NCBI RefSeq assembly: GCF_910596095.1
Contig: NC_056545.1
Coordinates: 24,017,067-24,081,066 of the forward strand
Origin: Thunnus maccoyii
Lineage: Eukaryota > Chordata > Actinopteri > Scombriformes > Scombridae
Length of the DNA stretch: 64,000 bases
Reading direction: 5' to 3'
Of this stretch, positions 2,907 to 57,901 are shown one piece after another. The notes below the pieces were generated by a model. It had not been told where the DNA came from and did not search any database. It saw only the letters and a program-made list of their open reading frames with translations. Every line of letters begins with the position of its first letter. Position 1 is the first letter of the stretch. A program made the translations under genes and the position numbers.

Positions 2907-5040
2907 AGACTTTTTTTTTTTTTTTGCTGTAAATGAACTCTGACAGTGTCATTGTGATTATGTTTTACACTCTGAATGCACTTTTAACTCCTAACCTTGC
3001 TGTGACACCCAAAGTGTTAATTGGTTAATCCCGCCCTTCCCTATGGAGGAAAAAACCCTCACGGACTTCAACAACTGAAGAATAGAGTCCTCAATTCTTT
3101 TGCAGTGCTTTGGCAAGAAATGTAGATGTTTTCTGACTAGTGATCATATATTTTGATGCAAATATTTGTCTTGCACTTAATATGATTTACCACTGTTACT
3201 TGCTATATATCAAGGTTGGCTAAAGAGTGGGCTTTTTTTTGCGATAGCCAAATATGATTCGAGTTTAATCAACCCCGTCTCCTAGAAATTACATTCATAC
3301 AGTAAGGAAACCTTACCTTTTTGTACAGAGGGTGTATGGTATGCATACACAATACAAAGCAGAGGACGTTGACACCCAAGACCAGCCTTTGTAACTTTGT
3401 TTTTGAGTGTTGCTATGTATATATGTGTGTATTGTGTGCATGTGTATAGGCGTATTATGGTGTGGTAATTCAGCTTAATTGTGTAGATGTTATGTGTCGT
3501 CCTGTATACCTATCAGGACTTTGAAATGAGTTCTTATATTGGGCTGTTCCCGACTAGGCTTAATTAATAATGCATTACATTACAAATAGCAAACTGAATG
3601 TTGAATGTGACAGAAAAAAAGTGTGCTTTCATGCAGATGTGAGTAGGCACCACAGAAACAGCATCCATTTGTCTGTGCTGGGATGGAAATGCATATATCA
3701 TGAGATGGTCAGGAGGCACTGAGACAGCAGTATGGTTGTAAGTAAGCATGCTTAAATTAGCAAGCTGTGGCTGTGACCTCATTATATGGGGACAAACAGC
3801 TACTGCAGATATATAAAGTGTCACAATTGGCAAAAAAAATTCAGTAGTCATGCCAAGTTTCCAGTCAGTTGTAAAAATCATGCAAATGATTTTACTTCCC
3901 CTGTCAGTATTTGTTGGTCTATTTCTATTGGCTTGTTTGATTAACATGCAGCCTCTTTTCTGCTTTTGTGTCCGCCAAATATAAACACAACAGACTCTTG
4001 CTTGTTTCTCCTCTATTTATGGAAACATTGCTGCCGGTTTGATTCACAGACAGAACTAATGACTCATTTTGACGTGGAGACTCACTGGCAGTGTTCCTTG
4101 GGGATAAAGAGGGCTGGAAGGGGGCAGAGAAGGGCAGTCGGGGTTTACTCTCACTCCTCCTCTCAGGGTCGAGTGTCCTCCAGAGGGGCTTTAGAGGAGG
4201 AGTAATATACTGAGATGTGAGAGATCGGATTCCCCTGGGATGGAAATGTAATATGACAGGGCACAATAGAAGAGGCAGGGGAGAGAACTGGCTGAATTTC
4301 CATACAGCAGAGGAGGCAATTGCCTTGGGCTTTTCATATGGCCTTGAACTTGGCGTAATTTGGTTTAATAATCCTGCATAACACACTTCTGTTTCCATGC
4401 CTTCCTCCATCATGTTCAACATCATGTAGAGCCATGTTAATAAGAGTGACAGAGGCGTGTGGAAGCACTGATGGTGGCATTTTACAGTCACTACGGATTA
4501 TGTTCTTAATCATCAAAGAATTCAGGACCACAAATGTTTTTCCTCTTAAAAAATATATCAGATACTTCTTTAAACTTTGACTGATGTTAAAGAAAACATT
4601 CCGTATCAGGTAATCACTTCCTTTATTGCCCCAAGAGGGCAATTCATTTGGCTGACAAGGATCATGACACACAGTAATACCACACACATGCAAACACACG
4701 GAAAGCAAGCCAAATGATTAATGCACGTCGACAGAGTAACAGATTTAACCCCATTATATAAATAAATGAATACATAACGCAAGACATGTAACTGCAGCTG
4801 CTGTGAGGCAGTTTTCATAATTTATTTTACTTTGCTGGTTTGATAAGGTCAGATGGTTGACTTTTGGATCGTATTTACTGCGTGCTCCCTCTCTATGAAA
4901 TGTGTCCTTTAAACACTATGTCCTCAATCCTTAAAGGTACAGTGCATCATTTAGATCTACACACATTCAAAATAAAGTTTTAGACCTAGTATTGGCACTC
5001 ATTCCAAGTTACTTCTATAATGACAATGATTATTTTTCAC
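2907..5040. other. Intergenic, no supported gene
   Basis: No gene recognised. Two minus-strand open frames (3564-3947 and 3925-4491) are present but show no family resemblance or biased composition and are treated as chance frames. A relatively GC-rich patch near 4080-4290 is the only compositional change. Confidence 0.55.
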
Positions 5041-5111
5041 TATTATTCAGTATTCAGAAGAGGGAAATTCAGAGAATCACCAAAGTCTTTAGGATACATC
5101 ATCCAGAAACC
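5041..5111 (+). repeat. Interspersed repeat, left part
   Basis: The text 'atcaccaaagtctttaggat' near 5078-5097 is a typical line of the same percomorph repeat seen at 1926-2142. It is followed directly by the duplicated segment at 5112 and resumes at 5406, so the duplicated segment may have inserted into the repeat. Confidence 0.5.
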
Positions 5112-5405
5112 ATGAGACATTTTCAGAGAGGACAAACTCATTTCCCCTGCAGTACTTAGTCCAAGGGCAGCCTGCTGTGCATAGACAGACATAGACTGAA
5201 ATTCTATGCAAATTGCCCAGTTATTCTTCTCTCCAGCACAGTGAACTGTGAATTGCTATATCTACAGAATGCAGTAATGAATACAATTTTTGCAGATCTA
5301 ATGCTAATAAAGTGAAGGTACAGTAGACTTAAATTTCTGTGTTGATATGAACTATACTAAGTTAAGCTCTCGTTTGTAAAATGTATAAATATCAATTAAT
5401 GGAGT
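5112..5405 (+). repeat. Duplicated segment, copy 2
   Basis: Second copy of the segment at 2586-2906, same orientation, slightly shorter. Its borders fall inside an interspersed repeat whose halves lie on both sides, which is what insertion of a mobile sequence would leave. Confidence 0.75.
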
Positions 5406-5790
5406 GTCTTTTAATCAACCCAAAAATGTAAACCTGGTGGTAGCGCTAGAGGAAAAGTCAGGGAATTACTAAAGTTTTTAGGATACCTCATCCGGAAACC
5501 ATGAATGTCTGTGCAAAGTTTTGTGCCAATCCATCTTGCAGATGTCAAGATATTTCACTGAATAAGTGAAAACTTTAAAGTTTAAGTAAAGGAAAAGTCA
5601 GGGCATCAGCAAAATCATTAGAATTGATTTCCTAGAGACCTTGAATATTTGTAACAAGTTTCACAGCTGCACATTCATTCTGTTGAAATATTTCAGTCTG
5701 GGCCAAAGTGACTGAAATATCTCAACAACTAACTACAGACAGACTGACATCCATAGACCCATGCTGCTAGCAGGGCTACAAATAAATGAG
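5406..5790 (+). repeat. Interspersed repeat, right part
   Basis: Contains two degenerate tandem lines of the CAACAACTATTGGATGG repeat family (a gaaaagtcaggg phrase at about 5451-5462 and again at 5591-5602) and ends with the characteristic tail 'agactgacatccatagaccc' near 5741-5760. Non-coding. Confidence 0.6.
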
Positions 5791-6375
5791 TGCACAAGTG
5801 AATTTTTAAAGACCTACTGACTGGTAATTTTGACTTTTGATATTAATTTTTTCAGAATATATCTGTTTTTATTCTCTGAATTAAGTGTCAATGTATTCTA
5901 TGCTAAGTTCCAATTCAAATCAACAAAATATCACTTGCTTCACTTATCACAGAATCGTATGTTTATAGCTAGAAAAAAATCACTAAAATGCTTGCCTGGA
6001 GTTACAGAAATAAGAGCATTTTTTTACTTGCTCAATCTTTTTTATTTGATTTAGCAGAAGAAGCTTTGATGGTAGAAGAAAGCTCAGATTTTGAAGTGCA
6101 GTAACATGAAGCAGGTCAGACCAATAGCCTTGAAACAGTGAGAAAAAGCTTGTTAGTCAGAAACATCACTTCAGGCTCACTCATATCTTGTCAGCACACT
6201 AGCATGAATGAGGATGATTGACAGTCAACACAGCTGGAAGGCCTTTTTAATTTCAATCATTGGCCGAGAAAGAATCACATTCTACGGCAAGAAACTTCTA
6301 ACACAGCCTGCTCTCTTCAAGTGCATATATAAATGCACTTATACAGCAAACACCTGAATACCCATATACAAGCAT

Positions 6376-6864: not shown

Positions 6865-8359
6865 GGTTAGTGTGACTGTGTATTAATGCAGAATCATGTC
6901 ATGAACTTTTCATGTTGTACGGGTAGTTTGGGTGTTGGGACAGACCTTGTATCTTCTATCAACTTCTCATCATACATTTCCAAAATATAAAAAGTGTGTA
7001 TATGCTGCCTCTGCTGGTCACCCCTGACCTCTGGAGCTCTGAAATAATCTGCATGCATTTATGCAGGTTATCAGAAGAAGTCTTAGAATTTTGATGTACT
7101 GAAGACCAAAATTTTAGTCTGAGCAGCTTGATACATACCAGAACAACGCCTGTATTTATCAAACTGCAAAAAGTAAAATTTTGGACTTAAGTAAAAGATA
7201 AAAGTAAACATCTTTCAATTTTACTACTACTCACAAATTTAAGAATAAAATGTATGTATCAATATTCCTTTGACTTAGGAATGGTCTTAAATGTAAGAGA
7301 GTTGCAGAGGTGATATTTTAAAGTAGATCCTAGATGAGTGCAGTACAGAAACAGAGCTGAGCACACCTGTTTTCTGTCAGGTGTTAAGTCCAATGGCCTC
7401 TGGAGATGAACTCTTCCTACAAAGCAACATCAGATTGTGACACCCATACACCCATAGTTATTGGAGAATGCTCATAATGTGTTCAGGATCCTCCCTCATA
7501 ATCTATACCTAATATAATTCTTGGCTCCACCCTCCAAGTGATCACAAATAAAATATGACCGATCAATAAGGTGTCTTGCTTATATACTGCACAAACTTCA
7601 ACTCATTCACTTATGCCAATCCCTACATTCCCCCTAAAAACTGGACACTTCTTCTCCCTGGGAATGTACAGCAGGCATTCAGGTTTACAGGTGTGGGTGG
7701 CCTGGAAGGGCCAGACAAAGAGTCAGTGACTGTAGAAGTACCCTGAGTAGAAGCTGGAGCCCTGTAGGCCGCTGTTGGAGTTCATTCTCTGCCCTTAACT
7801 GTGTCACCTGGGGCAGCCAGCGGGCGAGGAGCCATATTCAAAGTTTCTTGTCTTACCATTAGGGGTCTGTGTTTGAATGTATAAATGTTCAAGTGTTTGT
7901 GTATAATCATTTTAAAACATGTTATAAAATATTTACCAGTTAGCTAACGGGGAAAAATGTGCAAATTGTGCCCTGAAAAAGAACATTGAAACAGGTCCTT
8001 AAAAATATTATGACACCTGCAGTTGATTCAGTATTTAAGAAGCTTTATGTAACTTTGACATCACTGAGGGTAAAGAACGTCACAGAACACAGTATCATTT
8101 CACATATGATGATTTTATTGAATTCAACAAAAACAGTCAAATTGTAAAACATTGTGACACACATGAACAATAGGAATGAATGTATGATCTATTAACAGTA
8201 ATAAACACTTAAAATATGTGTGGTATGGACATGTAATATTACATCAACATGTAATATTTTGTATATTACATATTATACATATTATATATTTACCAAAGTA
8301 TTTAAAATCACAGTAAAATGTTGTAGGATTATGATATTGTTGGATATTATATTATATTA

Positions 8360-8662
8360 TATTGTGTGTGTGAGGACCTTCCCAGTCCCACCAGCACAGA
8401 AGAAGCAGCTTCCTCTGTGCTCGTGGGGTCAGGACAGTCCTCATCCTCTAGGCTGGTGAGGAGGTGGCTGGAGGCAGTGGAGGGGGAGGAGGGAGGGGGG
8501 AGGATGGTGGGGTGGGGGAGGGTCAGTCGTACTTGTACTCACTGGGTCTTCAGATAGTGTCTGGTGTAGTGTTTGGGAGGCAGGGTGGTGGGACTGGTTC
8601 AGAGGTCTGCTGTGGTGCTGGGTCTTCCTGGGATGATTGGTTGGTTGACATACTGACAATAC
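8360..8662 (-). other. Exon-like proline-rich module C (possible pseudo-exon)
   Basis: Read on the minus strand, this segment begins after a CACTTCAG or TATTGTCAG acceptor-like signal and contains the phrase GAAGACCCAGTGAGTAC, then a run of proline codons (a PPPPHHPPPS stretch), and then a frame reading EDEDCPDPTSTEEAASSVLV. The last part recurs at 9385-9500 and 9906-10035. The proline part and the EDEDCPDPTSTEEA part lie in different frames, so as it stands the module is not one continuous reading frame. It lies 3' of the other pieces of the minus-strand locus. It may be a decayed or alternatively used exon of that locus; no protein family is recognised. Confidence 0.4.
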
Positions 8663-8789
8663 TGAAGTGATGAAATAATATTCAAGAAGGTTCTTATAAT
8701 AGATATCATCAACATCTGTAAAGTTAATTTCAGCTTATACTTTATGTCACTGTTGCTGCCTTTCTAGTTTTAGTGAGGGGATTACTTAC

Positions 8790-9346
8790 TTAGTCGACTG
8801 AAGCGCAGGCTGCCACTGCTTTCCAGTTTGTCCAGTGGTCATCCATCCTTCTGATCTGGTCGGGAGTGAACATATCTTTTTTGTCGATAAAGAAACCCTG
8901 GATGATGAGTCTTCCACGTAGTCGCTTATAATCCTGAAGGCTGTGAAAGAACAGTTGCCTCTGCTGGATGCAGCGGATCAGAGGAATTGTTCCAGCCTCC
9001 ACAGCTCCAACTGTCACAACAACAAAACACATCATCTTTGGTGGACACCTTTGATATAACAGCATGTTAGACAGCCACCTGCTCTGTCAGAGGTGCAATC
9101 CAACAACTGAGACAAGATCCCAGAGTATGAAGAATGAAGAGCATAATATTCATTCATCAAAGTTGTCATCACTTATTACTTTACCTTTGTCTGTTACAGC
9201 CACCTATATGTTACTAAAAAACATGAATTTTCAAGAGAGTGAATCAAATAAATAATCTTTGGATGACTAGTAAGTGATATTAAGACATACAGGGCACTTT
9301 TGTTAACATTGTTATGTATTAACTTACCCTTTTCTGGTGTAACCAT
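8790..9346 (-). CDS. Putative short two-exon coding segment, function unknown
   Basis: On the minus strand, a short exon 9346-9328 (ATG then VTPEK) ends in a GTAAGT donor, and an exon 9010-8790 begins after a TGTTGTTGTGACAG acceptor. Joining them keeps one frame and gives 79 residues starting MVTPEKVGAVEAG and ending TNWKAVAACASVD. The middle is rich in Arg, Gln, Lys and aromatic residues (for example QQRQLFFHSLQDYKRL), so it looks like a folded or nucleic-acid-facing segment rather than low complexity. The stop codon TAA is followed at once by GTAAGT, a perfect donor, so the exon may also be spliced onward. The ATG is preceded by an in-frame TAG that could instead be the AG of an acceptor, in which case this is the 3' end of a longer product from the minus-strand locus. 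I do not recognise the family. It could also be a relic. Confidence 0.35.
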
Positions 9347-10400
9347 CTACACATGCAGAAAAATCTTGTGTGTGTGCATGTGTGTGTGAGGAGCTTCCCA
9401 AACCTACGAGCACAGAAGAAGCAGATGGTAAAACTTCCTCTGTGCACGTAGGGTCAGGACGGTCCTCGTCCGTTGGAAGGGGGAGTATTTGTACTCACAG
9501 GGTTTTTGGGGAAAAAAAACAAAACACAAGAGTGAGTAAGATAAATAATCACAGGATTTTTTCATAAGTGCCAGCAAGACTTACAGGAAACTTTTCATAA
9601 TGTAATTGATAATTAACATAGCTCTGTTTGTCAGTAAAATAAATCTTTGGAATACCAGTAAGTGATATTGAGACATAAAGGATACATTTGTTGTGTTATT
9701 AAGCATAAACCTTTAACTGGTATAACAATCTAGACCTATAGAGAAAAATACATAATAGTATGACAGATTAAGTTAGATAAATAATCATTCAACTGTTGAA
9801 TAAGTGACATTAAAACTTGCAGGACACTTTGTTAATGTTGTCATTAAGTTTTGATTTACCTTCTTCTAGTAATCCAGACAGTCACGATCTACAACTGGAG
9901 AAAAAGGCCTGCGTGTGTATGCGAGGAGCTTCCCAAACCCACCAGCACAGAAGAAGCAGGTAGTAAAAACTTCCTCTGTGCAGGTCGGGTTGGGACGGTC
10001 CTCATCCTCTTGGCTGTTGTGCTCACTGGGTCTTCTGAAAAAAATCAAAATACAAGCATGAGTGAGATAAATAATCACTGAATTTTTAGATAAGTGCTAA
10101 TGAGAATGGCAGGAGACGTGCTACAGAGGGAGTGACATAAATAGTCTTTGGATTTCCGATAAGTGATATTAAGACTTGCAGGAGACTTTTGTACATTGTT
10201 AAGTATTACCTTACCTTAGTCTGGTACAGTCATCTACACCTAGACAAAAAAAATCAAAATATTACAGATTAAATAAAATAAATAATTAATGAACTGTTAA
10301 ATAAGTGATATTAAAACTTGCAGGACATTTTTTGTCTATATTGTCATTAATCATTAACTTACCTCTGGTGTAGGCACTTACAACTTAGTCTAAAAAAAGA
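9251..10400 (-). repeat. ~0.5 kb tandem repeat with exon-like modules
   Basis: Units start at about 9251, 9776 and 10265 (the last partial), a period near 490-525 bases. Each full unit holds a spacer with the phrase 'aagtgatattaa', a minus-strand T-rich tract plus AG, a micro-exon-like piece ending in AGGTAAGT or a close variant, and a longer module on the CTTCCCAAACC..AGCACAGAAGAAGC theme (9385-9500 and 9906-10035). On the minus strand the long module of copy B reads DEDRPDPTCTEEV. Copy A carries a one-base length difference that breaks the same frame after CTEEV. The copies are diverged, so the duplication is not recent. It looks like a duplicated exon-intron unit of the neighbouring minus-strand gene, partly decayed. 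Confidence 0.6.
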
Positions 10401-10640
10401 ACAACTTAGCAAGTAAGGTTGGGATAATTATAAAAGTAATAATGCTAATTAAATAAGATATTAAATGGATAAGCAGGTATATTGTACACTTAGTTTACAG
10501 AGTTTCTCAATATTAATATAATAGCCTAAGCAGGTAAATTTCTTTGTAAGTCAGATGTTCATACTTAACTTTTTTCACATATTATGTCATGGACAATAGC
10601 TCATGTTTTATAGCATTCTGCCGATTTAAAGTGTGATTCC
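10401..10640. other. AT-rich spacer
   Basis: No gene or repeat recognised between the tandem units and the next repeat fragment. Confidence 0.5.
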
Positions 10641-10815
10641 CTGGATAAGAGATCGAGGGGAAGTGGACGTGTCCTTGGGCAAGACACTGAACTAGATGGT
10701 TATGCCAGTGCCTCGCATGGTACAATTTGTTGCTATCAATGCGTGCATGAATGAGAGGTAGCTACATTGTAAAGTGCTTTGAATGAAAGTGCTGTATAAG
10801 TGTATTACATTTAGG
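10641..10815 (+). repeat. Interspersed repeat fragment ('tgtccttgggcaagacac' family)
   Basis: The phrase TGTCCTTGGGCAAGACACTG (10669-10688) followed by AAAGTGCTTTGAATG and a tail of the 'gctgtataagtg' type matches a widespread teleost interspersed repeat known to me by sequence. It lies just 3' of the acidic gene's stop codon on that gene's strand, so it may form part of its 3' untranslated region. Confidence 0.6.
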
Positions 10816-10963
10816 TGTCCTATTCATTGTTATTTGAGGGAATTGTTATTCAAAAGGAAAAAAATGTATTAACAGATGCAAAAATCCCTGGTGCAAGACG
10901 CTACCTAAGGCAGTTTTTACGGTTTTCTAATCCTGTTTCCTGTGGTGTGCAGGGCTGGCAATT

Positions 10964-13776
10964 CTAGTCGGAGTCACTGTCATCAGCCCACAACGGGAAT
11001 CCAAAAGGACACTCCCAGTATCTCCTGCTTGTAGCTGAGGAGCTGCTGCCAGACGTTGTGCTGCTGGTTGCAGAGGAGCTGTGGCCTGAAGTTGAGGGAA
11101 CTGGGTTGTCCATCCTTTCCTCACAGTTCCTCTTCGGGGGCTTGGCAGTCACCTCCTCCCAGTGGCTGTCTTCCCTGCTCCTCTTCGTGGACGAGCTGAG
11201 GCTGGGGGTTGAAGGAGCAGACTCTTCGGGCTGTTGGGATGCTGAGGCTCCAGGGAGCTCGTGGTGCTGAACAGGTACCGGTGGATGCCTGGCAGTCAGC
11301 TGCTGAGGAACAACAAAAGGAGCAGCAACAGGAACAGGAGCACCAGCAGGAACAGGAGGATAAGCTTCTCTCCAACGCTGCCAAAAGTTGTCTGGTGGGA
11401 GCTGCTGGACAAGAGGAGAACGAGGTCTGATGTCATCGTCTTCTAATTCCTCTTCATCTTCGGACAGACTCTCATATCCGGAATCCTCGCTTGACCAGTC
11501 AAACCAGTCGTCACTGTCATCGGTGTCTTCATCCTCCTCTTCATCACTCTCGCTCTGCTGGTCGTCTTCCTCCACCTCATCCTCTTCATCAGAAGAGAAC
11601 GGAGGAACGTCCTCACCTCCACCTGCACCTACAATACCTACCACAACCTCATCCTCCTCCTCCTCGTCAGAAGAGATGTAGATGGGGAGATTGTTGTCAT
11701 CATCGTGGTCCAGGATCCTGATGACTTCAGGGATGCCGGGTCCTGCAGGACGCTCAACGAGGTAGCCGACACGCTGAAAGGAGCCACCTGATGGGAAAAG
11801 AGACACATCACATGAGAACTTGATTTCAAATCTGAAGTATTTCTCATAACATCAAATAATTGTGACTAAATAAGCAACAATCAATGTTTAAGTTAGACAA
11901 CATACAACTATGACTGCAATACACGTGTCAGAGCTAGCCAATGGCAAAGCCAACAACACACAAGATGAGGGCATGAGAGTCATTTTTTATGCTGTATTCA
12001 TGTGGGACTTAATGATAACCATTGTTTAGTCCACTCAGTCACTTGGAAAAACTACCTTAAAAGGCAACTTGAATTTTATCTAATAGATGTCTATTGATCA
12101 ATAACCCATTTGTACCACTTGTGTAATTCTCATTTTATTAAGAGCTGATTACTAATCATTCGATTGTTGTGACATATTTGGCTGCCAAGTAAATGAAGGT
12201 TTACGCCATTCTGACTTGTGAGCTCTGTGATGAGGGACTGCTCATTACACTGCGTTTTGGTCTGGTCTGAAGACTACAACAATGGCTAAGCCTGAGTTTA
12301 GTAACACATACTATTGGAGTATGTAATGATGCGGAAAAAAAATGAGAGCAAATATTAAAAAATACTATTCCCAAGGCCGCAGTGATGGTTTATAATTGTA
12401 ATAGACCTAATAATAATAATAATAATAATAATACACTGTAGGGCTCTCAGTTAAAAGGCGCACATAAACAATGCTCTGTAATTGCTAAATGAAGAGAGGT
12501 GGAGCTCCCTATGCGCCCTGCGCTTTTACGCGGGCTCTCTCCGCTTTTTTTTGGATCTGGATTCAGATTAAAGCCCACAGAGCTACGTTCCTAATCCGTT
12601 TTTGGACGAAAATTCAACTCAACGGAAAATGGAATAACAGGATAAATGAGAAAACGGAGAGGGGGCTAGGGAAGCGATCTAGGTGAAGAAGGCAACATGG
12701 ATCACGAGAAAAAATGTGATTTATCTCTTAGTGGCCCATTAACTGACTCTTGTGTAGGCCTACGTGCATTGGAAGGAGTTTCTTTTGCACCAACAGAGCA
12801 TTGTAAAGACTTCAGTGACACAAAACTTTCCATAGTTGGCAATAAGCTTCGTGAATTATTTAATGTGAAGTCAGCTGTGCATCATTATGCACGCTGAACC
12901 ATGAGCATATTGGTTAAACCATGCGCAACCAGCAACAGAGTTTCTCCAAAATAACTACAGAAACTTCTGTGCTTCTGTGCACAACAAACTAGTCGTTTTT
13001 AACTATTTATTTTCCCAGTTTATGTGATGCAAATCTTTAGGGCATGTACGAGACGGTAGCATCCTGGACGCAGGACGCGCACATGCAGAACCTTAAAGCT
13101 GCATGTTTCTTTCCTCTCCCTCGAAAAATAAAACAAACGAACAAACAGATCGCGTTTCAATGTTATGAAAATACCAAAAATGATGCAATTACAGTACGGC
13201 AACAGCTTCGGATACATTTTTAGACAATTAAGCTTCAACAATCAAAAAAGCAGCTTGGATTTAGCTACACGTTAGAAGAACCGGACCCAGGTCTGTTTAC
13301 ACCTGTACGTCCTGACGTTCTGACGTCTGGAGCTCAGAGTTCCAGCGTCTCCATGGTGCGAGACAAGAACATAATTTTGGCATTTTCCGAAATTTGGCCC
13401 AGTCGCCATCTTTTTTCCATAATTTCAATGCAAGTTTTGGACAATTTGATGTATTGAAACCAAAATAACAGTGTTTCAAATCACCACACTAATTGTTTAC
13501 ACATTCCACACCTGTCCCGGGATATTTCATTCGTTCTATCCAATAAATAATCATTTTACACGGAGAAATCGTAGAATAACTGTCTGTTTTCACCAAATCT
13601 GTGTTTTTTTCAATAGGCCCAATTACATGCTATGAACTGTCCACCTTTAAACTCTAAAAGTGACATTATTTTTTACTCTAAGATTGGTTTCAAAACTTTC
13701 TTGGAGATAAATAATGAATAAATCATAAGTAAAATATAAATTTTAAATTGGTCTTACCTGCCGGGTCACGGTCCAT
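10964..13776 (-). CDS. Uncharacterised acidic Ser/Pro-rich protein, two coding exons
   Basis: Exon 1 is 13776-13758, ends in a GTAAGA donor and encodes MDRDPA plus one base. Exon 2 is 11787-10964, starts after TTTTCCCATCAG, and reads GGSFQRVGYLVERP onward to a TAG stop. The join keeps frame and gives 280 residues. An ATG inside the intron at 11806 extends the second exon's frame but is not needed. Residues ~35-135 are dominated by Asp/Glu/Ser tracts (DEEEEDE, DEVEEDD, ESDEEEDED). A short aromatic segment (DNFWQRWREAYPPV) and a Pro/Val/Ala linker follow. Two basic clusters (TKRSRED, KPPKRN) look like nuclear-localisation signals. A Ser/Thr run and the tail WECPFGFPLWADDSDSD close the protein. 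I infer a nuclear protein that binds basic partners through its acidic part, perhaps a transcriptional or chromatin regulator. I do not recognise the family; no catalytic motif, signal peptide or membrane segment is visible. Confidence 0.65.
11788..13757 (-). other. Intron of the acidic gene
   Basis: Bounded by GTAAGA and CCCATCAG on the minus strand. It contains a (TAA)n tract near 12408-12433 and no recognised gene. A GC-richer stretch around 12480-12690 has a short plus-strand open frame without family resemblance. Confidence 0.6.
12408..12433. repeat. (TAA)n microsatellite
   Basis: About eight uninterrupted TAA triplets in the intron of the acidic gene. Confidence 0.9.
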
Positions 13777-14036
13777 CTCATGGGCGACTCCAGTCAGCAG
13801 GTGGTCACCAGCGAAGAGGGGTCCTCCGAGGGCCATTTCCAACTTGTTCAGTTGTCCAAGTATCCAAGTAGTCCTTCAGAGATCCAAGTAGTTTTGTTTT
13901 CCAACAAGATCCGCTTTAGAAATTCTTTCCAGCGCTTCAATTCTCCAAGAGTTCACTTTCCAGTGTCCAAGCTTTGCAACAGGTCAACTCGGGTCCAAGT
14001 TCAGATGCAAAGTGAGGAATCAATGTTCTGCACGCA
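13777..14036 (-). other. Probable 5' leader of the acidic gene, with repeated CTTGGA motif
   Basis: This is the stretch between the bZIP-site cluster and the proposed start codon on the minus strand. It has six exact copies of TCCAAG on the plus strand (CTTGGA in the transcript), starting at 13855, 13863, 13883, 13944, 13966 and 13994. About 0.04 copies would be expected by chance in 145 bases. Another ATG sits five bases before the proposed one, in a different frame (ATGAGATGG), and would read out of frame after splicing. The transcription start itself cannot be placed from sequence. Confidence 0.5.
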
Positions 14037-14085
14037 TGACGTAACCTCGGTTTGCTCATCAATGACTCATCACGCGTGTGCGTCA
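14037..14085 (-). promoter_or_regulatory. Cluster of three bZIP-type sites (CRE/AP-1) upstream of the acidic gene
   Basis: Within 49 bases there are TGACGTAA (14037-14044, CRE-like), TGACTCA (14063-14069, a perfect AP-1 site) and TGCGTCA (14079-14085, CRE/AP-1 half-site variant), with the palindrome CACGCGTG (14071-14078) between the last two. An AT-rich 'gaatatat' element lies just upstream on the minus strand. The arrangement resembles promoters responsive to CREB/ATF or Fos/Jun. Function is inferred. Confidence 0.5.
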
Positions 14086-24605: not shown

Positions 24606-24867
24606 GGTGAAGTGTTTACCTTGGAGGCCAACAGCAGTGGCACTGTGAAAAAAAGATGGCTGTTAAGTTCTTTCCACTCAGTGATCTACTCATGAACCTG
24701 ATTACCTTTATACTCAGGAGCCGTGGAAGGGATTTTCTGATGGAAATGTAAACTGGCAGTATTTGAGAAAGTGTGGAGATAAGTGGATGAGCCTGTTTAA
24801 ACCTTTTCTGCTGAGATAGCGACAGCAGCAGTGTGTCAGTGACCCCGTGCCTGAGGAATAGGGCACC
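24606..24867 (+). other. Likely 5' untranslated exon part of the H2-like receptor gene
   Basis: A good acceptor, CTTGTTCTTCCCCAG, ends at 24605, followed by 262 bases without intervening splice signals up to the start codon. An in-frame TAG (24859-24861) just upstream of the ATG excludes a longer N-terminus read through this stretch. The upstream untranslated exon was not located. Confidence 0.45.
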
Positions 24868-26862
24868 ATGATCTCCACAGCTCTCCGCTGGCTGGTCCTG
24901 GTGTCTATTATAATTCTGACCATCAGTGGGAATGTGCTGGTTTGTTTGGCTGTGGGGCTCAGCCGTCGACTGTGGCGCATTGCTAACTGCTTCGTGGTGT
25001 CGCTGGCAGTGACAGATCTCCTGCTAGGCCTGCTGGTCCTGCCCTTGTCTGCCACTGTGGAGCTACGCAGTGGGAAATGGCCCTTCGGAGGAGCCCTGTG
25101 TAACATCTACATCTCACTGGATGTCATGTTGTGTACATCCTCCATCCTGACCCTGCTGGCAATCAGCGTGGACCGATACCTGGCCATTTCAGCTCCCCTT
25201 AGCTACACCCGGAGAGTTACCCGTCCAAGGGTGACACTGGCCATGATCGCCATCTGGGCCTTGTCACTAACTGTGTCCTTTGTGCCCATCCACCTGGGCT
25301 GGAACACAGTGGATTACAGAGTGCAGAACTTGGACTGGGGCATCTGGGATGAGTACAAGGATGGGCGCTACTGCCAGTTTGAATGGAATAACAACTATGT
25401 TCTTTTTTATGCCTTTGGCTCATTTTACCTGCCTCTGCTGGTTATGTGTGGAATGTATCTTTGCATATTCAGAGTGGCACGAGAACAGGTCAGTGTTTAT
25501 TATCATTTTGTAAAACATGCTGAGGTGGGATATAAAAGGTCATAACTTAAAGGGGACATATCATGCACATTTCCAGGTCTATATTTATGTTCTGGGGCTC
25601 TACTGGGATATCTCTGCATGATTTACAGTTAAAAAAAACTCCTTATTTATCTTATACTGGCTCTTTATGCAGCCTCTCAGTTCAGCCTCTGTCTGAAACA
25701 GGCCGTTTTAGCTCCTGTCTCTCCAAGGCCCCCTCCTGATGAGCCCCCTCTGTTCTGCTTGGTTAGCCTCTGCAAGCTATTTAAGCAAACAGTAGTAGTA
25801 GTATTTCACTACTTTTTCTCATTCCATATTGAAAATTTCAACTTCTCAAATACATCTGTACATGTTCAAACTTGAATCTGATCCAAAATATGCGAGTGGA
25901 CAATGTGCACAACCCATGGAACAACCTTAGCAACAACCTTAGCAACAAAGGCTACAGAACAGATGGCCATTTGTGGGCAATGATCTGACATCAGTTCAAT
26001 GGTGAAGTAGCAACCTGGGTGTTCAGAGCAGGCTGAAGCCCTGGCATTTGAATTGCAGGGAGCATTTTTACATACATTCACCTCAAGTTTTGGACATTAT
26101 AACAGTATAAAAATAACAAAAAACCACAAAAAGCATGATATTTCCCCTTTAAGACCTGCAGCACTTCTGGTAATCAGGACGAAATACGATTTCATATTAG
26201 TGATTGGCAATTTAGTAGAACAAACATATGAAACAGACATTAAAATAACATTAACAAAATCATATTCATTTGTAATGTATCACTGAATTAAATTCATCAG
26301 ATAAATGAATGAACACAGTCCCCATATCTCATTACTGTGTCTTCTGGCTCTCTAACCTTCTCTTAACCAATCCTTACAGGTACGGCGTATTCGTGCTGCC
26401 ACTCCATCATTTGCACGCACAGCATCAACTGCTGCCATAGCCCAAGAGCACAAAGCTACAGTGACCCTGGCAGCTGTTCTGGGGGCCTTTGTCATCTGCT
26501 GGTTCCCCTATTTCACTTTCTTCACCTGCATGGGCATAAAGGAAAAGACTAACCCCCCCAATACACTTCACTCTGTGGTCCTGTGGCTGGGCTATTTAAA
26601 CTCAGCTCTTAACCCCATCCTGTATCCAGCTCTCAACAGGGATTTCCACAGGGCCTACGGAGAGCTGCTTCGCTGCAGAGGACCCTCTCGCAGAACACTG
26701 CAGCTTACTCCAGCATCTGTGCACAATTGCAGAAAACGATTTACTAATGGACAAAGGGTTTCCCAACAGTCTGAAGAACATATAGACACAGTTAAGACAG
26801 AAACTGAGGCAAAAAGCCTTACTCTACATGACAGAAATGGCATCCCTGATGAGCCAAGTTGA
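24868..26862 (+). CDS. hrh2: Histamine H2 receptor-like GPCR
   Basis: A class A aminergic receptor at the plasma membrane; mammalian H2 receptors raise cAMP through Gs. Exon 1 is 24868-25488 (donor GTCAGT), exon 2 is 26380-26862 (acceptor CCTTACAG), giving 367 residues. Diagnostic features are GN in TM1 (N22), LAVTD in TM2 (D50), the amine-anchoring Asp in TM3 (D85 in SLDVMLC), DRY at 102-104, the C78-C169 disulfide pair, CWFPYF in TM6 (W248) and NPILY in TM7 (285-289). The phrases [11 protein letters not shown] and [16 protein letters not shown] agree with H2 receptors. ATG 24868 has a fair context (GCACCATGA), but leaves only about seven residues before TM1 and no N-glycosylation sequon, shorter than human. 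TM5 has Tyr and Ser where human H2 has Asp186 and Thr190, so ligand binding may differ. The intron falls in loop 3. Which teleost paralogue it is cannot be told. Confidence 0.88.
25547..26152. mobile_element. TTAA-flanked MITE in the H2-like receptor intron
   Basis: The left end TTAAAGGGGACATATCATGC (25547-25566) and the inverse complement of the right end (26133-26152) match at 19 of 20 positions, with TTAA at both edges. This fits a piggyBac-like non-autonomous element. It fills most of the intron between the two coding exons and encodes no transposase. Confidence 0.75.
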
Positions 26863-45300: not shown

Positions 45301-48300
45301 ATTGTACTCTGCTGCCACCTGTTGTTCAAACAGTAACACCACACGCTTACCAAAATAGAGAAAGTGCTGTGAACTCTCTGCTTAGTAAGCAAGTAAAGAA
45401 AAACACCCATAGTGTCAGAAAGAAGCTGTGACTGTCCAGGTGATCTGAACTTACCAATTAAGCACAGATACAACCAGCCTCATCATTATAAATATCAGAA
45501 ATAGTTACAATTGCATTGTTTCAACAGTGCTGACTTCTATCAGACTGTTCAGACTTGAAAGTCGGGCAAAAGGTCTCCCGTTGTTTGGTGTGTACCGCCA
45601 CTTGAGTGTGTTTTCGCAATGAAAAATTGGTTTCTGGTTTCCCTGAATATAACTTATCTCATCAAAAAGAGCTGGTGGCTGTATTTTTTTTTTTTTCAAA
45701 AGAATATGTATGCATGTGTTTGCTCTGTGCGATAGGAATACTATGAGCACACTCATTTGTAAGTGTGGAATATAAAAGGACTTTTACTCCAGGTTCCCCA
45801 CGTTGCCACAGGCAGTTTTCAATACATGACAGACAAAAGAAAAATTGTTATTAGATTTGGGTTTGCTTTTTTGTTTTTTTTTATTCCTCTTCTTGAAATG
45901 AATTACCAGGTAGAAAACATTTTAAATATTTGTTACAATATACATGTCAAATCACTGAAATAAATGGGTTAAATTTGTTTATTACTAAAGTACTGATTAA
46001 GGAAATTGGTAAATATTAAGGCTGAAACTAGCTATTTTTATTCATTTTATTGCTCACCTGATGTCTGTCTAATTCAGTCTAATTTATTAATTGTATGCAG
46101 TTAAGCCCTCAGCTCGCTGCTATTCCTCAAACTATTTATTTTAACAATGCTTTTCACTAAAAAGTTTATAGGTTCACCACAGACATGAGGTATGTAGGCC
46201 TAACAGTGTTACATTTAGAAGGTTGCTATATATAAACATATAATACTGTGTTTTCCTGTTTGGCTTCATGGTGGCACTGTTGTCTAACTGTTACTATGAA
46301 TAAGTTCAGGAACAAGGATGAAGAAGTTTGTTTTATACTGTCACACTGACATGATACAGAGAAAGGTTCTGATGACAGTAACTCTGAAAATGAAATGAAA
46401 CTGAAGGAACTGATGATGAGTATTATATTTAAGTCATGTTTAAGTTATGAAACAAATAATTCAGAAACATAAATAGAGCAGGAGAGTGATAATGCTAGCT
46501 CAGATGACATTGGCGCTGAACATGAGGAGGGCCAAGCTGCTATTCAAGTAGTTGTGCCAAGAGTCTCAGTCTGAGCTGCGACAGATGAGGAAACCTCATA
46601 TCCCTGCAAAAATGGACTTGTGTGGGTGTCAGCCCAACCTCCTCCAAGCAGAACCAGAGCTTTTAATGTACTGTATTTCACACCAGAAAAGGCCCTACAT
46701 GAAGAAAAGGCTGCAATGAAAAATATTAATGAAAATTATCTTTAGCATCTTTAAATGACTGAGGGGAAAAATGGTAAAAGTATGTTTTTTGTGGGTTTAT
46801 TATTGTCAATTACATGTTCTGACAAACAATATTATTTTAATGTAGCTCAATATGCATTATATATGCAACTGGTCACCAATGACATAAGTAATAAGTAATT
46901 ACTATATCCAAATTGATACATTTCCATGTGAAACTAACTATAAGCCATTCGACAAAAAAGATTGTGGAGAGATAATATACTATCTCCAAAAACTGTACAG
47001 TATATTGATTCATCAGGCAGCCCCTTTTCCCCTCATCAAATCCATGTTATCCTATTCTTAAAGCACAACTAGTTCTAATATGAAGTATGAAGGTAACAGA
47101 GGGATGTTAAAGGTGCATTGTGTAGAATTTAGTGGCATCTAGCGAGTGGACTTGGTAGAAAACGTGCAACCTCACCGCTAGATGCCGCTAAATCTTACAC
47201 ACCTTTAAGGTGAGAAAAAGAGCAGTAGAGATGAAATAATTTATTGGGGGGCTTCTGCATAACAAGACTAGAGAACCACCTCTCAGGTTTGACACTCTTA
47301 TCTCATGCCAGGAGGAGAGAAGAGAATTTCTCTCAGATCGAAAGATTTTTTTCCACCTCTTCCATGTTTCAACCTACCTACCTCGAGTTATTGTATTTTT
47401 TTCACACTTAAAGAACAGTTTCAGTCAGATACGGGACTGAGGACATAGTCTTGATTGTCTTCAGCTTACTTGAAATTAAGTGATGAACATGTGCAATGGC
47501 TTTTCAGTAATGCTGCGTTCAAATTCTGCTCATGTTGTCTGGATCTATTATTATTTTTACTGCTCTCTCACCTTTCCATTAGTGGCTGTAAAATTGAAAT
47601 TTTGATGAGGGAGTCCTGTCAGTTGGCAATGGTGAGCCGACTTGTGTAGCTCATGAAGTGGTGAGAAGATGATGAAGAGATGATGACATCAGTTGTGCTT
47701 GTCACTGTGCAGGCTGATATGCTGCTTAAAGGCAGTTCCAGATGGCAAACATCTGTCAAGGGGATTACAACAGTTTCTTATAGTGATCTAAATGCTTAAC
47801 TCTCCATCTGCAACTGCTTGCGTATGTATGTCAGGGGGCTTATTTCTATTTGTATAGGGAGGAGGGGAGGGGAAGGTTTGTTTAAACATCTGTGATATCA
47901 AGTGGAATTTTTATTTATTCTTCCTAGTCTGAGATGACGTCACTGTGCAGATTTTTTTTTTCCAGGAAGTAAAAGTAATGAATATTTGATGTAAAAACAC
48001 AGGGAAACGAATGAATGAATTGCATGAGTGCAAATGAGCTATAAAGGTAGAAAGGTAATTTTTTAATTTTAGTGTGTAGTGTGTGAAAGGCACCTACCAA
48101 GAGAGAGGTGTATATTTACCAGAATTATGCATGACTTTATATGTTTAACACACAAACACAGACACACATATACACACAAACACCACACAATTTAACTGAA
48201 TAGCGGTAACCTGCATACTGTGCAGTCCTTTGCTATTCAAACAGTGTAGACAAACAGGCTTACATAACTATGAGGGAATAAAATATTCAATTTATGAATG

Positions 48301-54300: not shown

Positions 54301-56334
54301 AATGTAATCACACATTGTAGTTGACAGATACGATTACAGCCTGGACAGTTCTGGTTCATTTTTCCAACAGACTGAAAAAACAGTAATATCATAGGGTACA
54401 ATAATCTTAATTCATCTTTCCCACAGGAATGTCCAAGTGGAGTGGTAAATGAGGAGACATTTAAACACATCTACGCACAGTTTTTTCCTCATGGAGGTAA
54501 AGTACAACACTTTCTGTGAAGACGCTCTGTGAAGCTTTTTAATAACAGAAGGCCTTACATATTTGTTTTTTGTGTTGCAGATGCAAGCATGTATGCACAT
54601 TATCTTTTCAATGCATTTGACACCACAAACAATGGCTCCATTAAGTTTAAGGTAACAAAAAGTGTCATCCATCTTTGTAATCATTTTTATTCAAAACTTC
54701 ACTAATTTCTTCACTATAATACGCAATGATGCTTCCTGAGTTTATCTTGTCTCTCTATTCTGTTCTGTTTCCAGGATTTTGTGGTTGGGTTGTCTATACT
54801 GCTGCGGGGAACACTGAGGGAAAAACTGGAGTGGACGTTTCACCTTTATGACATTAACAGAGATGGCTACATAAACAGAGAGGTGAGACTGTGCTGTCAC
54901 AATGTATACAATATGCTTTTCATGTCATCTAAAGCCTCTGTCTCAGCACAATGTGCATCTTCTCTTCTTCTTTCAGGAAATGACTGAGATTGTGAGGGCC
55001 ATTTATGACATGATGGGCAAGTACACCTATCCTGCGCTGAAGGGAGACGTCCCACAGCAGCATGTGGATGCCTTTTTTCAGGTTAGATCACCAACACATA
55101 ATTTCACAGACATATGAGTCGAAGTCAGCATTTGTTATTAAGTGACAGGTGATTGTAAAACCCATTATTTTACACAGCAGGAAGTAAAACAACCTGACTC
55201 TTAATGTCTCTTATCATACCCTAGTAACTTCCCAAATTAATGTTTTTAGTTTTATTGAGACACTTTGCATATAATACAAGATTTCAGATAAGGCTTGTAA
55301 ATTTTTATATCATTAGCAAAGCCAGTCCTTGCAGTCCATAGCAACTTTCTAAGACAGTATTGTGTTCTATAGTGTGTACAGTTTATTGCAACACAAGCTC
55401 ACAATAAACACATTTCCACAACAGAATTATCACATATTCGCTGATACTGGCTCACACTATGTTCTGTTACATTGTTTTTCCACAGAAAATGGATAAAAAC
55501 AAAGATGGAGTGGTGACTTTAGAGGAGTTTGTTATAGCCTGCCAGGAGGTGTGTATCGCTCTACATCTGGGGCTGTCTTCATTTAGTATGTAATAGCAAT
55601 AAAATATGTTTAAAATTTGAAACATTTATCAAAGAAGGAAGCATATTGTCATATTACTGAGATATGTTCCTAGTATTCATACACATATGTTATACACTGT
55701 AGAGGTACATTTAAAATTTTGGCATGGAAATTCATTCTTGACCTTGGGAAACAGAAGTCCATTTACTAGCTTTCAGAGCTGTCAGTCACATCTCATGGTC
55801 TTCACTAAGTGAATGGAGCACAATTACACACTTATGCATTATGACACCTGAGCTAGCTCCAGCTGCTGAATTAAGACCCTGAGATGCAGTTGAAAGCTCC
55901 AAAAGCTAGTGAGTGGACCTTTGAGCTTAGATAACACATAGAAAACATATATAACATTGAAATTGTCAATGCAGACAGTGCAAGTAGATGTGTGCTTTAT
56001 GTAGATTTATAACAGGTTCTAATCACCGCATTATATGCCCAAATGTGCATTAGTCTAAATGAGGTCATACACATGCAGAGAACACCAACTTCAACATTAC
56101 AAAGAATATCAACACTCCTCCAGAAATATTTGAAACGGATGTTTCTGCAAAGATAAATGAATTATGTTAGCCCTGGAAGCTGCTTGTGCAACAGGACTAG
56201 CTGTACATCGTTATATACAGAAGTACAAAACAGATGCTAGTTAATTACATCATTCTGCCATGATTACTTGTCTTCTCTCTCCCCAGGATGAAATCATGAT
56301 GAGATCCATGCAGCTGTTTGAGAATGTGATGTAG
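39387..56334 (+). CDS. kcnip1: Kv channel-interacting protein 1 (KChIP1)
   Basis: A neuronal-calcium-sensor protein that binds the Kv4 channel N-terminus and tunes A-type potassium current. Coding exons: 39387-39474, 54179-54303, 54427-54496, 54581-54651, 54775-54882, 54977-55081, 55486-55548 and 56287-56334, all with GT-AG borders and preserved frame, total 225 residues. Exon 1 reads [17 protein letters not shown], matching the human isoform that begins MSGCSKRC; cysteines 4 and 8 are possible palmitoylation sites. The core follows the family ([43 protein letters not shown]). EF-hand loops are [12 protein letters not shown] (108-119), [12 protein letters not shown] (144-155) and [12 protein letters not shown] (192-203); EF1 is degenerate, as usual. 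The protein ends [11 protein letters not shown]. Intron 1 spans 14.7 kb and contains an alternative first exon. Assignment to KCNIP1 rather than KCNIP2-4 rests on both N-termini and on npm1 lying next door; the teleost a/b paralogue is not resolved. Confidence 0.93.
39475..46299 (+). other. kcnip1 intron 1, 5' part
   Basis: No further exon recognised. The stretch around 42140-42380 is less AT-rich than its surroundings and could be a conserved regulatory element, but that needs comparison with other fish. Confidence 0.45.
46300..46735 (+). pseudogene. Decayed piggyBac-like transposase N-terminal fragment
   Basis: In one frame, with one internal TGA, the segment 46489-46719 reads acidic text ([15 protein letters not shown]), then [18 protein letters not shown] and [11 protein letters not shown]. 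The combination of an acidic N-terminus followed by a 'W-x(3,5)-PPP-x-R-T' line is typical of piggyBac transposases just before the catalytic domain. Upstream, a weakly related acidic stretch ([11 protein letters not shown]) lies near 46359-46391. The catalytic domain with its Asp residues is absent, so this is a truncated remnant in kcnip1 intron 1. Confidence 0.6.
47107..47208. mobile_element. 102 bp TTAA-flanked palindromic MITE
   Basis: TTAA lies at both edges (47107-47110, 47205-47208). Left arm: TTAAAGGTG, then ATTTAGTGGCATCTAGCG. The inverse complement of the right arm reads TTAAAGGTGTGTAAGATTTA and then GCGGCATCTAGCGG. Only about 30 bases separate the arms. The arms match those of the larger element at 15945-16725, so this is an internally deleted relative. 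Confidence 0.8.
47209..49619 (+). other. kcnip1 intron 1, middle part
   Basis: No exon recognised. A CA-rich microsatellite lies at 49164-49230. Confidence 0.5.
49164..49230. repeat. Interrupted (CA)n microsatellite
   Basis: CA repeats with several G, C and T interruptions. Confidence 0.9.
49620..49931 (+). promoter_or_regulatory. Probable promoter and 5' leader of the kcnip1 internal first exon
   Basis: Purine-rich sequence directly upstream of an alternative start codon. It has no acceptor-like signal just before the ATG, which fits a transcription start inside this stretch. A CCCTTTAAGATA motif at about 49807-49818 is TATA-like, but no start site can be proven. Confidence 0.4.
49932..49989 (+). 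CDS. kcnip1: Alternative first coding exon of kcnip1 (myristoylated-type N-terminus)
   Basis: Reads [19 protein letters not shown] plus one base, then the donor GTACGT. It matches the human KChIP1 N-terminus that begins MGAVMGT and contains TKQRRPSK. Gly2 with a small residue at position 6 is a typical N-myristoylation signal, which in the family directs KChIP1 to membranes. The exon ends in phase 1, the same as exon 39387-39474, so it can splice straight to 54179 and give a 215-residue protein. The two alternative N-termini imply two promoters about 10.5 kb apart. The extra IAWWYYQYQR exon of a longer human isoform was not found between here and 54179. Confidence 0.88.
50950..51010 (+). repeat. 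Short repeat fragment ('gactttattgatcca')
   Basis: The phrase AGATAGATGAGACTTTATTG (50958-50977) followed by ATCCATAAG resembles the 3' tail of common teleost retroposons. Confidence 0.4.
51200..51505 (+). repeat. Interspersed repeat ('tctttatgctaagctaagct' family), copy 2
   Basis: Starts near GCAGTGACTTCCTGGAAG, includes AACAAACAAGATATAATG and the phrase TCTTTATGCTAAGCTAAGCT (51389-51408). Same order and orientation as the copy at 29268-29660. Confidence 0.65.
51506..54148 (+). other. kcnip1 intron 1, 3' part
   Basis: No exon recognised. An open frame at 52040-52513 is T/C-rich low-complexity sequence and is not supported as coding. Confidence 0.5.
54149..54178 (+). repeat. (TC)n microsatellite forming the splice acceptor tract of kcnip1 exon 2
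   Basis: A run of TC dinucleotides (54149-54169) leads directly into TTCCCTGCAG, the acceptor of the first shared coding exon at 54179. The microsatellite is therefore the polypyrimidine tract itself. Confidence 0.85.
55612..56019 (+). repeat. Duplicated ~400 bp segment, copy 1 (kcnip1 last intron)
   Basis: The segment recurs at 58941-59341 in the same orientation. Shared text includes AACATTTATCAAAGA near the start, GCTGAATTAAGACCCTGAGA in the middle, and TAACACATAGAAAACATATA towards the end. It lies wholly within the intron between kcnip1 exons 55486-55548 and 56287-56334, and carries no exon. Confidence 0.85.
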
Positions 56335-57843: not shown

Positions 57844-57901
57844 TATGATGTGAATTCTTAAATTGAGTTGTGTTTTACTTGGCAATTGTTGTTTCTTGTA
57901 C

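Follow-up and report, generated by a model that had tools for sequence, protein, structure and literature searches.

The window analyzed here is a 64-kilobase (kb) stretch of the Thunnus maccoyii genome (C13:24017067-24081066), and features within it are numbered from its first base. Its minus strand carries, from about 14040 to about 8100, what appears to be a single transcription unit: two coding exons for an acidic protein, followed by three homologous hairpins and one polyadenylation (poly(A)) signal. Relatives of this gene are found on several other contigs, and the hairpins recur in a subset of them.

The two-exon gene and its paralogs

The coding part of exon 1 (13758..13836, minus strand) runs for 79 nucleotides (nt) from an ATG at 13836 to a phase-1 donor, G/GTAAG. 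Exon 2 (10964..11787, minus strand) opens at the acceptor CAG/GT at 11787, closes with a stop codon at 10964-10966, and supplies the remainder of a 300-amino-acid (aa) protein. A sequence-only reading of this DNA had proposed a gene model joining 13776-13758 to 11787-10964; its donor, acceptor, and stop are all found, and splicing from 13758 to 11787 is predicted. The reading frame that it proposed holds, but the protein length of 280 residues does not: the ATG at 13776 is an internal start, and an in-frame ATG upstream at 13836 gives 300 residues. We prefer the upstream ATG because exon 1 then has 79 coding nt and a phase-1 donor in the window gene and in its three intact paralogs (C13a, C13b, and C23a, described below). 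Comparison of exon 1 finds this ATG common to the window gene, C13a, and C13b, and the exon-1 coding part of the C23a model is likewise 79 nt long and of equal phase. No shuffle gave an open frame as long as the 295 codons found here: the maximum was 244 in 300 dinucleotide shuffles of the frame's 1-kb region and 170 in 20 shuffles of the entire window.

The acidic, Ser/Pro-rich composition reported for the protein is borne out, with 70 acidic residues among the 300, compared with 18 Lys/Arg, and a pI of 4.05. All four intact proteins of the family fall on the disordered side of the charge-hydropathy plot, which suggests that the window protein is largely disordered, as judged by charge and hydropathy alone. 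The sequence-only reading could place this protein in no family, and database searches led to the same result. Searches of Pfam, NCBIfam, and PHROG gave no family at the curated cutoff or at an E value below 0.001; the best family match was BUD22 (E = 0.18; 11.6 bits against a cutoff of 37), and the best PHROG value, for a 73-aa segment, was 0.21. PDB sequences yielded no relative (best E = 1.1, for the 73-aa segment just mentioned), and none was present among 47 pattern matches to the viral contigs of IMG/VR. In the titles and abstract openings of the papers listed by searches of open-license PMC text, we found no description of the gene family or of the hairpins.

The remainder of the genome does hold relatives. 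A search of its 782 Mb, in 54 contigs, with the window protein as the query returned 20 matches at E values of up to 1, located in the window, C13a, C13b, C23a, C13d, C20, C23b, and C24. The C24 match (E = 0.046) was set down as low-complexity chance, and two further relatives, C13c and C5, were found by other searches. Four family members are intact two-exon genes, namely, the window gene, C13a (C13:25.225 Mb, stretch L024; 439 aa), C13b (C13:25.615 Mb, L025; 372 aa), and C23a (C23:3.770 Mb, L026 and L036; 497 aa). Another five are decayed: C23b (C23:3.148 Mb, L029) carries stops, C20 (23.278 Mb, L028) carries stops and frame changes, C13d (28.895 Mb, L027) is partial, C13c (27.918 Mb, L003) retains the 3' part only, and C5 (24.958 Mb, L070) is a more distant relative. 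These counts are lower bounds because the search scores best candidates only. With C23a as the query, 108 matches were listed; the majority join a repetitive stretch of C23a to a single C8 region at low scores, and these were set aside.

Two of these relatives have features of their own. In C5 (L070, about 5480-6108), repeats resembling a nuclear localization signal (NLS), one downstream segment, and the poly(A) region adjoin one another, and the 2 to 3 kb that lie between them in the window are absent. We rejected a retrocopy origin because the sequence past the poly(A) signal is preserved. Behind the stop codon of C23a lies a minisatellite with many copies of a unit of about 101 bp (L026, about 3690-6180), a 25-nt piece of which matches window positions 10910-10886. 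As a separate observation, the decayed coding region of C20 contains a long uninterrupted hairpin (-56.4 kcal/mol; L028, position 8440 of the turned stretch).

Purifying constraint is supported by comparison with the distant paralog C23a. Ratios of nonsynonymous to synonymous divergence (dN/dS), computed by the Nei-Gojobori method with bootstrap intervals, are 0.34 for the window gene against C23a (0.22 to 0.49), 0.43 for C13a (0.30 to 0.59), and 0.45 for C13b (0.31 to 0.60), values that are rough because dS in these comparisons is large (1.1 to 1.3). All five exon-2 indels in the window/C13b and C13a/C13b comparisons are multiples of three, compared with 19 of 53 in seven noncoding comparisons. 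Residues invariant in all four proteins include IRI.D, LPI.ISSD, ESDE, GY.S, and DSDSD, the last of which forms the C-terminal end of each. Between close pairs, dN/dS is near 1, suggesting that recent protein change among close copies has been fast or relaxed. The earlier suggestion of a fast-evolving gene is in keeping with this value and with the presence of several copies that agree in exon phase, 5' sequence, and open frame. We are highly confident that this is a real, quickly evolving gene family.

The dispersal of copies over C13, C20, C23, and C5 would also suit the product of a transposon or virus, as would the limits of the similarity among the window, C13a, and C13b units, which fall within tens to about 200 bases of each other. 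Such an origin is extremely unlikely. Library searches of the protein found no transposable-element or viral domain, the viral scan was negative, and neither the repeat lists (25/26 and 22/22 pairs) nor the border alignments contain terminal inverted repeats at the unit ends. Unlike a fixed unit, the likeness between C23a and C23b continues for about 2.4 kb beyond the poly(A) signal, and the intron and 5' region have been copied as well. Two more alike blocks upstream of C13a and C13b (74% and 94%) were given no weight because they are separated from the unit and could be repeats.

Hairpins downstream of the stop codon

Three homologous hairpins lie 3' of the stop codon on the strand of the gene. 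Hairpins A (9923..10003, minus strand) and B (9388..9467, minus strand) both have arms of 35/35 nt, with loops of 11 and 10 nt, respectively, and hairpin C (8371..8443, minus strand) has arms of 35 or 38 nt, depending on which of two folds is considered, and a loop of 3 nt. Each folds with almost no imperfection, and their z scores are -6.77, -7.10, and -7.25. In 6390 folds of 100-nt segments of the 64 kb, the three rank 1st, 4th, and 5th among nonoverlapping segments, and hairpin C has the lowest energy of all.

Modules containing these hairpins recur in C13a, C13b, and C13d and are broken in C13c. A DNA search of the genome returned at least nine matches, and all nine belong to the family: three in the window (the query included), two in C13a, three in C13b, and one in C13d. 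A covariance search of 11 sources recovered the known copies and a fourth C13b copy that folds poorly (-13.6 kcal/mol). Copies C13a1, C13a2, and C13b1 to C13b3 have arms of 42/39 nt and loops of 11 nt; the corresponding lengths are 34/38 and 8 nt in C13d and 25/22 and 9 nt in the fourth C13b copy. The z scores are -4.87 for C13a1, -3.17 for C13a2, -5.48, -5.12, and -2.07 for C13b1 to C13b3, -1.94 for C13d, and -0.22 for C13c.

When aligned, the modules have 24 consensus pairs in common, and paired cells amount to 96.8%, compared with 47.3 to 59.5% when the pairing is slid. Over nine copies (C13c left out), identity reaches 97.0% for the apical stem and 93.9% for the paired columns as a whole; the loop has 79.3% and the internal loops have 71.6%, the last being a soft value because alignment near the 5' base is uncertain. 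Hairpins B and C have deletions of 1 nt and 10 nt, and these are located in the loop and its closing pair. Two further ideas were rejected. Self-targeting of the family's coding sequences by the arms gave best matches of 15 to 17 out of 22, compared with 13 to 16 in 15 shuffles, and the search for a source gene with a 19-mer gave nine matches, of which two lie outside the family with one mismatch each.

This region had previously been read as protein-like. The sequence-only reading described further acidic and proline-rich text downstream of the gene and offered two accounts of it, alternative 3' exons or a partly decayed neighboring gene. The text (EDEDCPDPTSTEEA) is indeed present, at 8448-8407, but corresponds in essence to the 5' arm of hairpin C (8443-8371), and its frame is not kept, as the hairpin modules carry 1-nt and 10-nt indels that break it across copies. 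A 98-aa open frame (VGAVEAGTIP...CASVD; 8790..9086, minus strand) is no conserved exon either, having an internal deletion in C13a and C13b and being altered in C13c. Three features nevertheless favor exons. An acceptor-like TTTTTTTCAG stands ahead of hairpin A and of the C13a1 and C13b1 modules; a nonhairpin segment at about 8656-8545 (SVCQPTNHP..) has one frame that is free of stops in each of the five copies compared, with a ratio of nonsynonymous to synonymous differences (pN/pS) of about 0.6 to 1.1 in distant pairs; and an open frame in C5 extends from the NLS-like repeats into the counterpart of this segment. Each pair, however, offers fewer than 25 synonymous sites for the pN/pS values, and comparable ratios come from another frame. 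We lean toward regarding this segment as noncoding, with a short downstream coding exon there as the less likely alternative. With modules that are stable hairpins of broken frame inside one poly(A) unit, both earlier accounts appear very unlikely.

The boundary of that unit is set by an AATAAA at 8114..8119 (minus strand), the sole AATAAA or ATTAAA between the stop codon and position 7900. C13a and C23a have a similar signal with similar sequence behind it. The hairpins therefore most likely lie in the gene's own transcript, within a long 3' untranslated region or its introns, and we think it probable that they are genuine RNA hairpins inside the gene's own unit.

Intron 1 and other features of the window

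The first part of intron 1 (13197..13757, minus strand) is an unusually alike noncoding block and holds GGAAAAAAGATGGCGACT (13418-13401). Its first 555 aligned bases are 2.9% diverged from C13b, compared with 12.0% for exon 2 and 24.9% for the remaining intron, and a 351-column match to C23a has 70.7% identity. In a scan of five paralogs, the motif AAAGATGG[CT]GACT was present in C13a, C13b, C23a, and C20 and absent from C13d. The sequence AAAAAAGATGGCGACT, which we take to resemble a YY1 site, is retained in C23a, and C20 has it with one change. Either gene conversion or a regulatory element could account for the likeness of this block.

Elsewhere in the window, open frames at 24862-25542 and 26356-26859 (plus strand) match positions 1-185 and 179-260, respectively, of the 260 positions of PF00001 (7tm_1); by eye, they represent a histamine-H2-like receptor that is apparently intron-split. 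An exon-like frame at 54730-54984 (plus strand) matches the EF-hand model weakly (E = 0.00074; its 19.3 bits fall short of the curated cutoff of 25.4) and by eye resembles a Kv-channel-interacting protein. Unrelated hairpins about as stable as those of the gene lie at 57881 (plus strand; -50.8 kcal/mol per 100 nt) and 38521 (minus strand; -50.1 kcal/mol per 100 nt), and a further unrelated, very stable hairpin lies at 47121 (plus strand; -44.3 kcal/mol per 100 nt).

Protein motifs and the possible products of the transcription unit

Short motifs give some indication of what the protein may do. A SUMO-interacting motif (SIM) has an hhXh or hXhh core with an acidic flank (PMC8616421). A SIM-like stretch of this kind, VIRILDHDDD (11696..11725, minus strand), occurs in all four intact paralogs; for a second and weaker one, EDEVVVGIV (11630..11656, minus strand), the acidic-flank cutoff is passed in three of the four, with C13b failing. 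PML and Daxx, two SIM-containing nuclear proteins, have, like the window protein, the hydrophobic core beside acidic and Ser-rich residues (PMC8616421). No domain common to these proteins and the window protein was found, and the likeness is one of short motifs. At 11468..11485 (minus strand), the window protein contains DSGYES, as does C23a, and C13a and C13b have DTGYDS; we take both to fit the DSGxxS pattern of a beta-TrCP degron. The protein also has a nuclear-localization-like repeat unit (KRSRE..AKPPKR; 11129..11185, minus strand), which forms tandem repeats in paralogs. The strict bipartite NLS pattern fails in the window copy; C13a has three instances, and C13b and C23a have two each. 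Taken together, these motifs point to a nuclear, disordered protein that would bind SUMO and owe its turnover to a DSGxxS degron.

The explanation that we prefer, and to which we give a slightly better than even chance, combines this protein with hairpins that are Microprocessor substrates in one unit. The gene would be transcribed and its two coding exons spliced. The resulting protein would most likely be nuclear, recognize SUMO-modified proteins by its SIM, and have a short life because of its degron. The three hairpins of about 35 bp would most likely be substrates of Drosha/DGCR8. Their processing would either yield small RNAs, in which case the gene would be a microRNA (miRNA) host, or cut and destabilize the mRNA that carries them.

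The sources on Microprocessor substrates give an optimum of about 35 ± 1 bp for the stem of a primary miRNA (pri-miRNA) (PMC10954719) and of >10 nt for its terminal loop (PMC6298569, PMC10954719), and describe CNNC, basal UG, and apical UGU as redundant motifs (PMC6298569, PMC10954719). The arms of A and B fit this published stem length. By eye, UG is found at the base of A and C and CG in that of B; the C13a and C13b copies have UGU in their loops, and A, B, and C do not. The window hairpins resemble pri-miRNA hairpins in host genes in the length of the A and B arms, their high stability, and their occurrence as clustered homologous copies; they differ in having no Rfam family, no CNNC that we could see, and one 3-nt loop. 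The likeness to the Drosha-cleaved mRNA stem-loops of the Dgcr8 type is that of a hairpin within an mRNA whose cutting would repress its host (PMC10954719). Non-miRNA Drosha substrates are reported in that text to have a mean stem of about 26 bp (PMC10954719), and the arms of the window hairpins are longer. Hairpin A is weakly similar to mir-3158 (RF03941; 27.4 bits, E = 0.1), far under the gathering score of 97 bits, and is not a member of that family. Whether the hairpins are Microprocessor substrates is, in our assessment, about an even question.

A number of observations weigh against the preferred explanation. For the protein, a degron-type pattern arises in 0.06 to 0.11 of shuffles per protein and at least one SIM in 0.17 to 0.51. 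For the close paralogs, dN/dS is 1.03, 0.90, and 0.90, and every interval spans 1; recent constraint on the protein is therefore weak or offset. For the hairpins, the loops of 11, 10, and 3 nt in A, B, and C leave loop C below the published optimum, and no CNNC was seen by eye in the short flanks of the folded hairpins. The very small loop C and the lack of a visible CNNC, together with the placement of the hairpins between the stop codon and the sole poly(A) signal, would fit other cis elements of the host RNA, of the Staufen, ADAR, or nuclear-retention type, that act without Drosha processing. We consider this unlikely, as the 35-nt arms and 10- to 11-nt loops of A and B suit Microprocessor substrates well.

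The distribution and variation of the hairpins count on the same side. The stretches containing C23a, C23b, C20, and C5 gave no meaningful covariance match (the best, in L026, had an E value of 0.11 and lies on the strand opposite the gene), and so the hairpin is not general to the gene family. No Rfam family was found for the hairpins at gathering level. No support comes from double (compensatory) changes, which are absent from all 24 pairs, the shuffle control lends none either, as the observed values are attained in all 500 shuffles (covariation score, 0.068 versus 0.073), and arm-to-arm or copy-to-copy conversion could be the cause of the likeness of the stems. Several copies are weak, with shuffles as stable as the copy itself numbering 8 of 200 for C13b3, 7 of 200 for C13d, and 82 of 200 for C13c. 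Restriction to the C13 copies, the lack of double changes, an uninformative shuffle control, and a fold that is lost in C13c, weak in C13b3 and C13d, and poor in the fourth C13b copy would all be consistent with inert hairpins, a young inverted duplication spread merely by duplication of the gene. This is quite improbable, given that the stems are more alike than the loops over nine copies and that all three tandem copies of the window gene have kept the fold.

Under the preferred explanation, a further step can be considered. The family may have a dual output, in which one transcript encodes a SUMO-binding nuclear protein that evolves fast and also carries an expanding cluster of hairpins of the pri-miRNA type. 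The two would duplicate together, each new protein copy having its own small-RNA or self-cutting brake. We offer this as a tentative idea, and a rather doubtful one. The gene may well be annotated as an uncharacterized protein in other fish. The family, for which no domain model exists, is very likely a real fish gene family that is evolving quickly, and sequence that reads as decayed acidic exons is probably structured RNA. If the hairpins are processed, the protein and the small-RNA output of this family would evolve jointly, by duplication of the whole gene.

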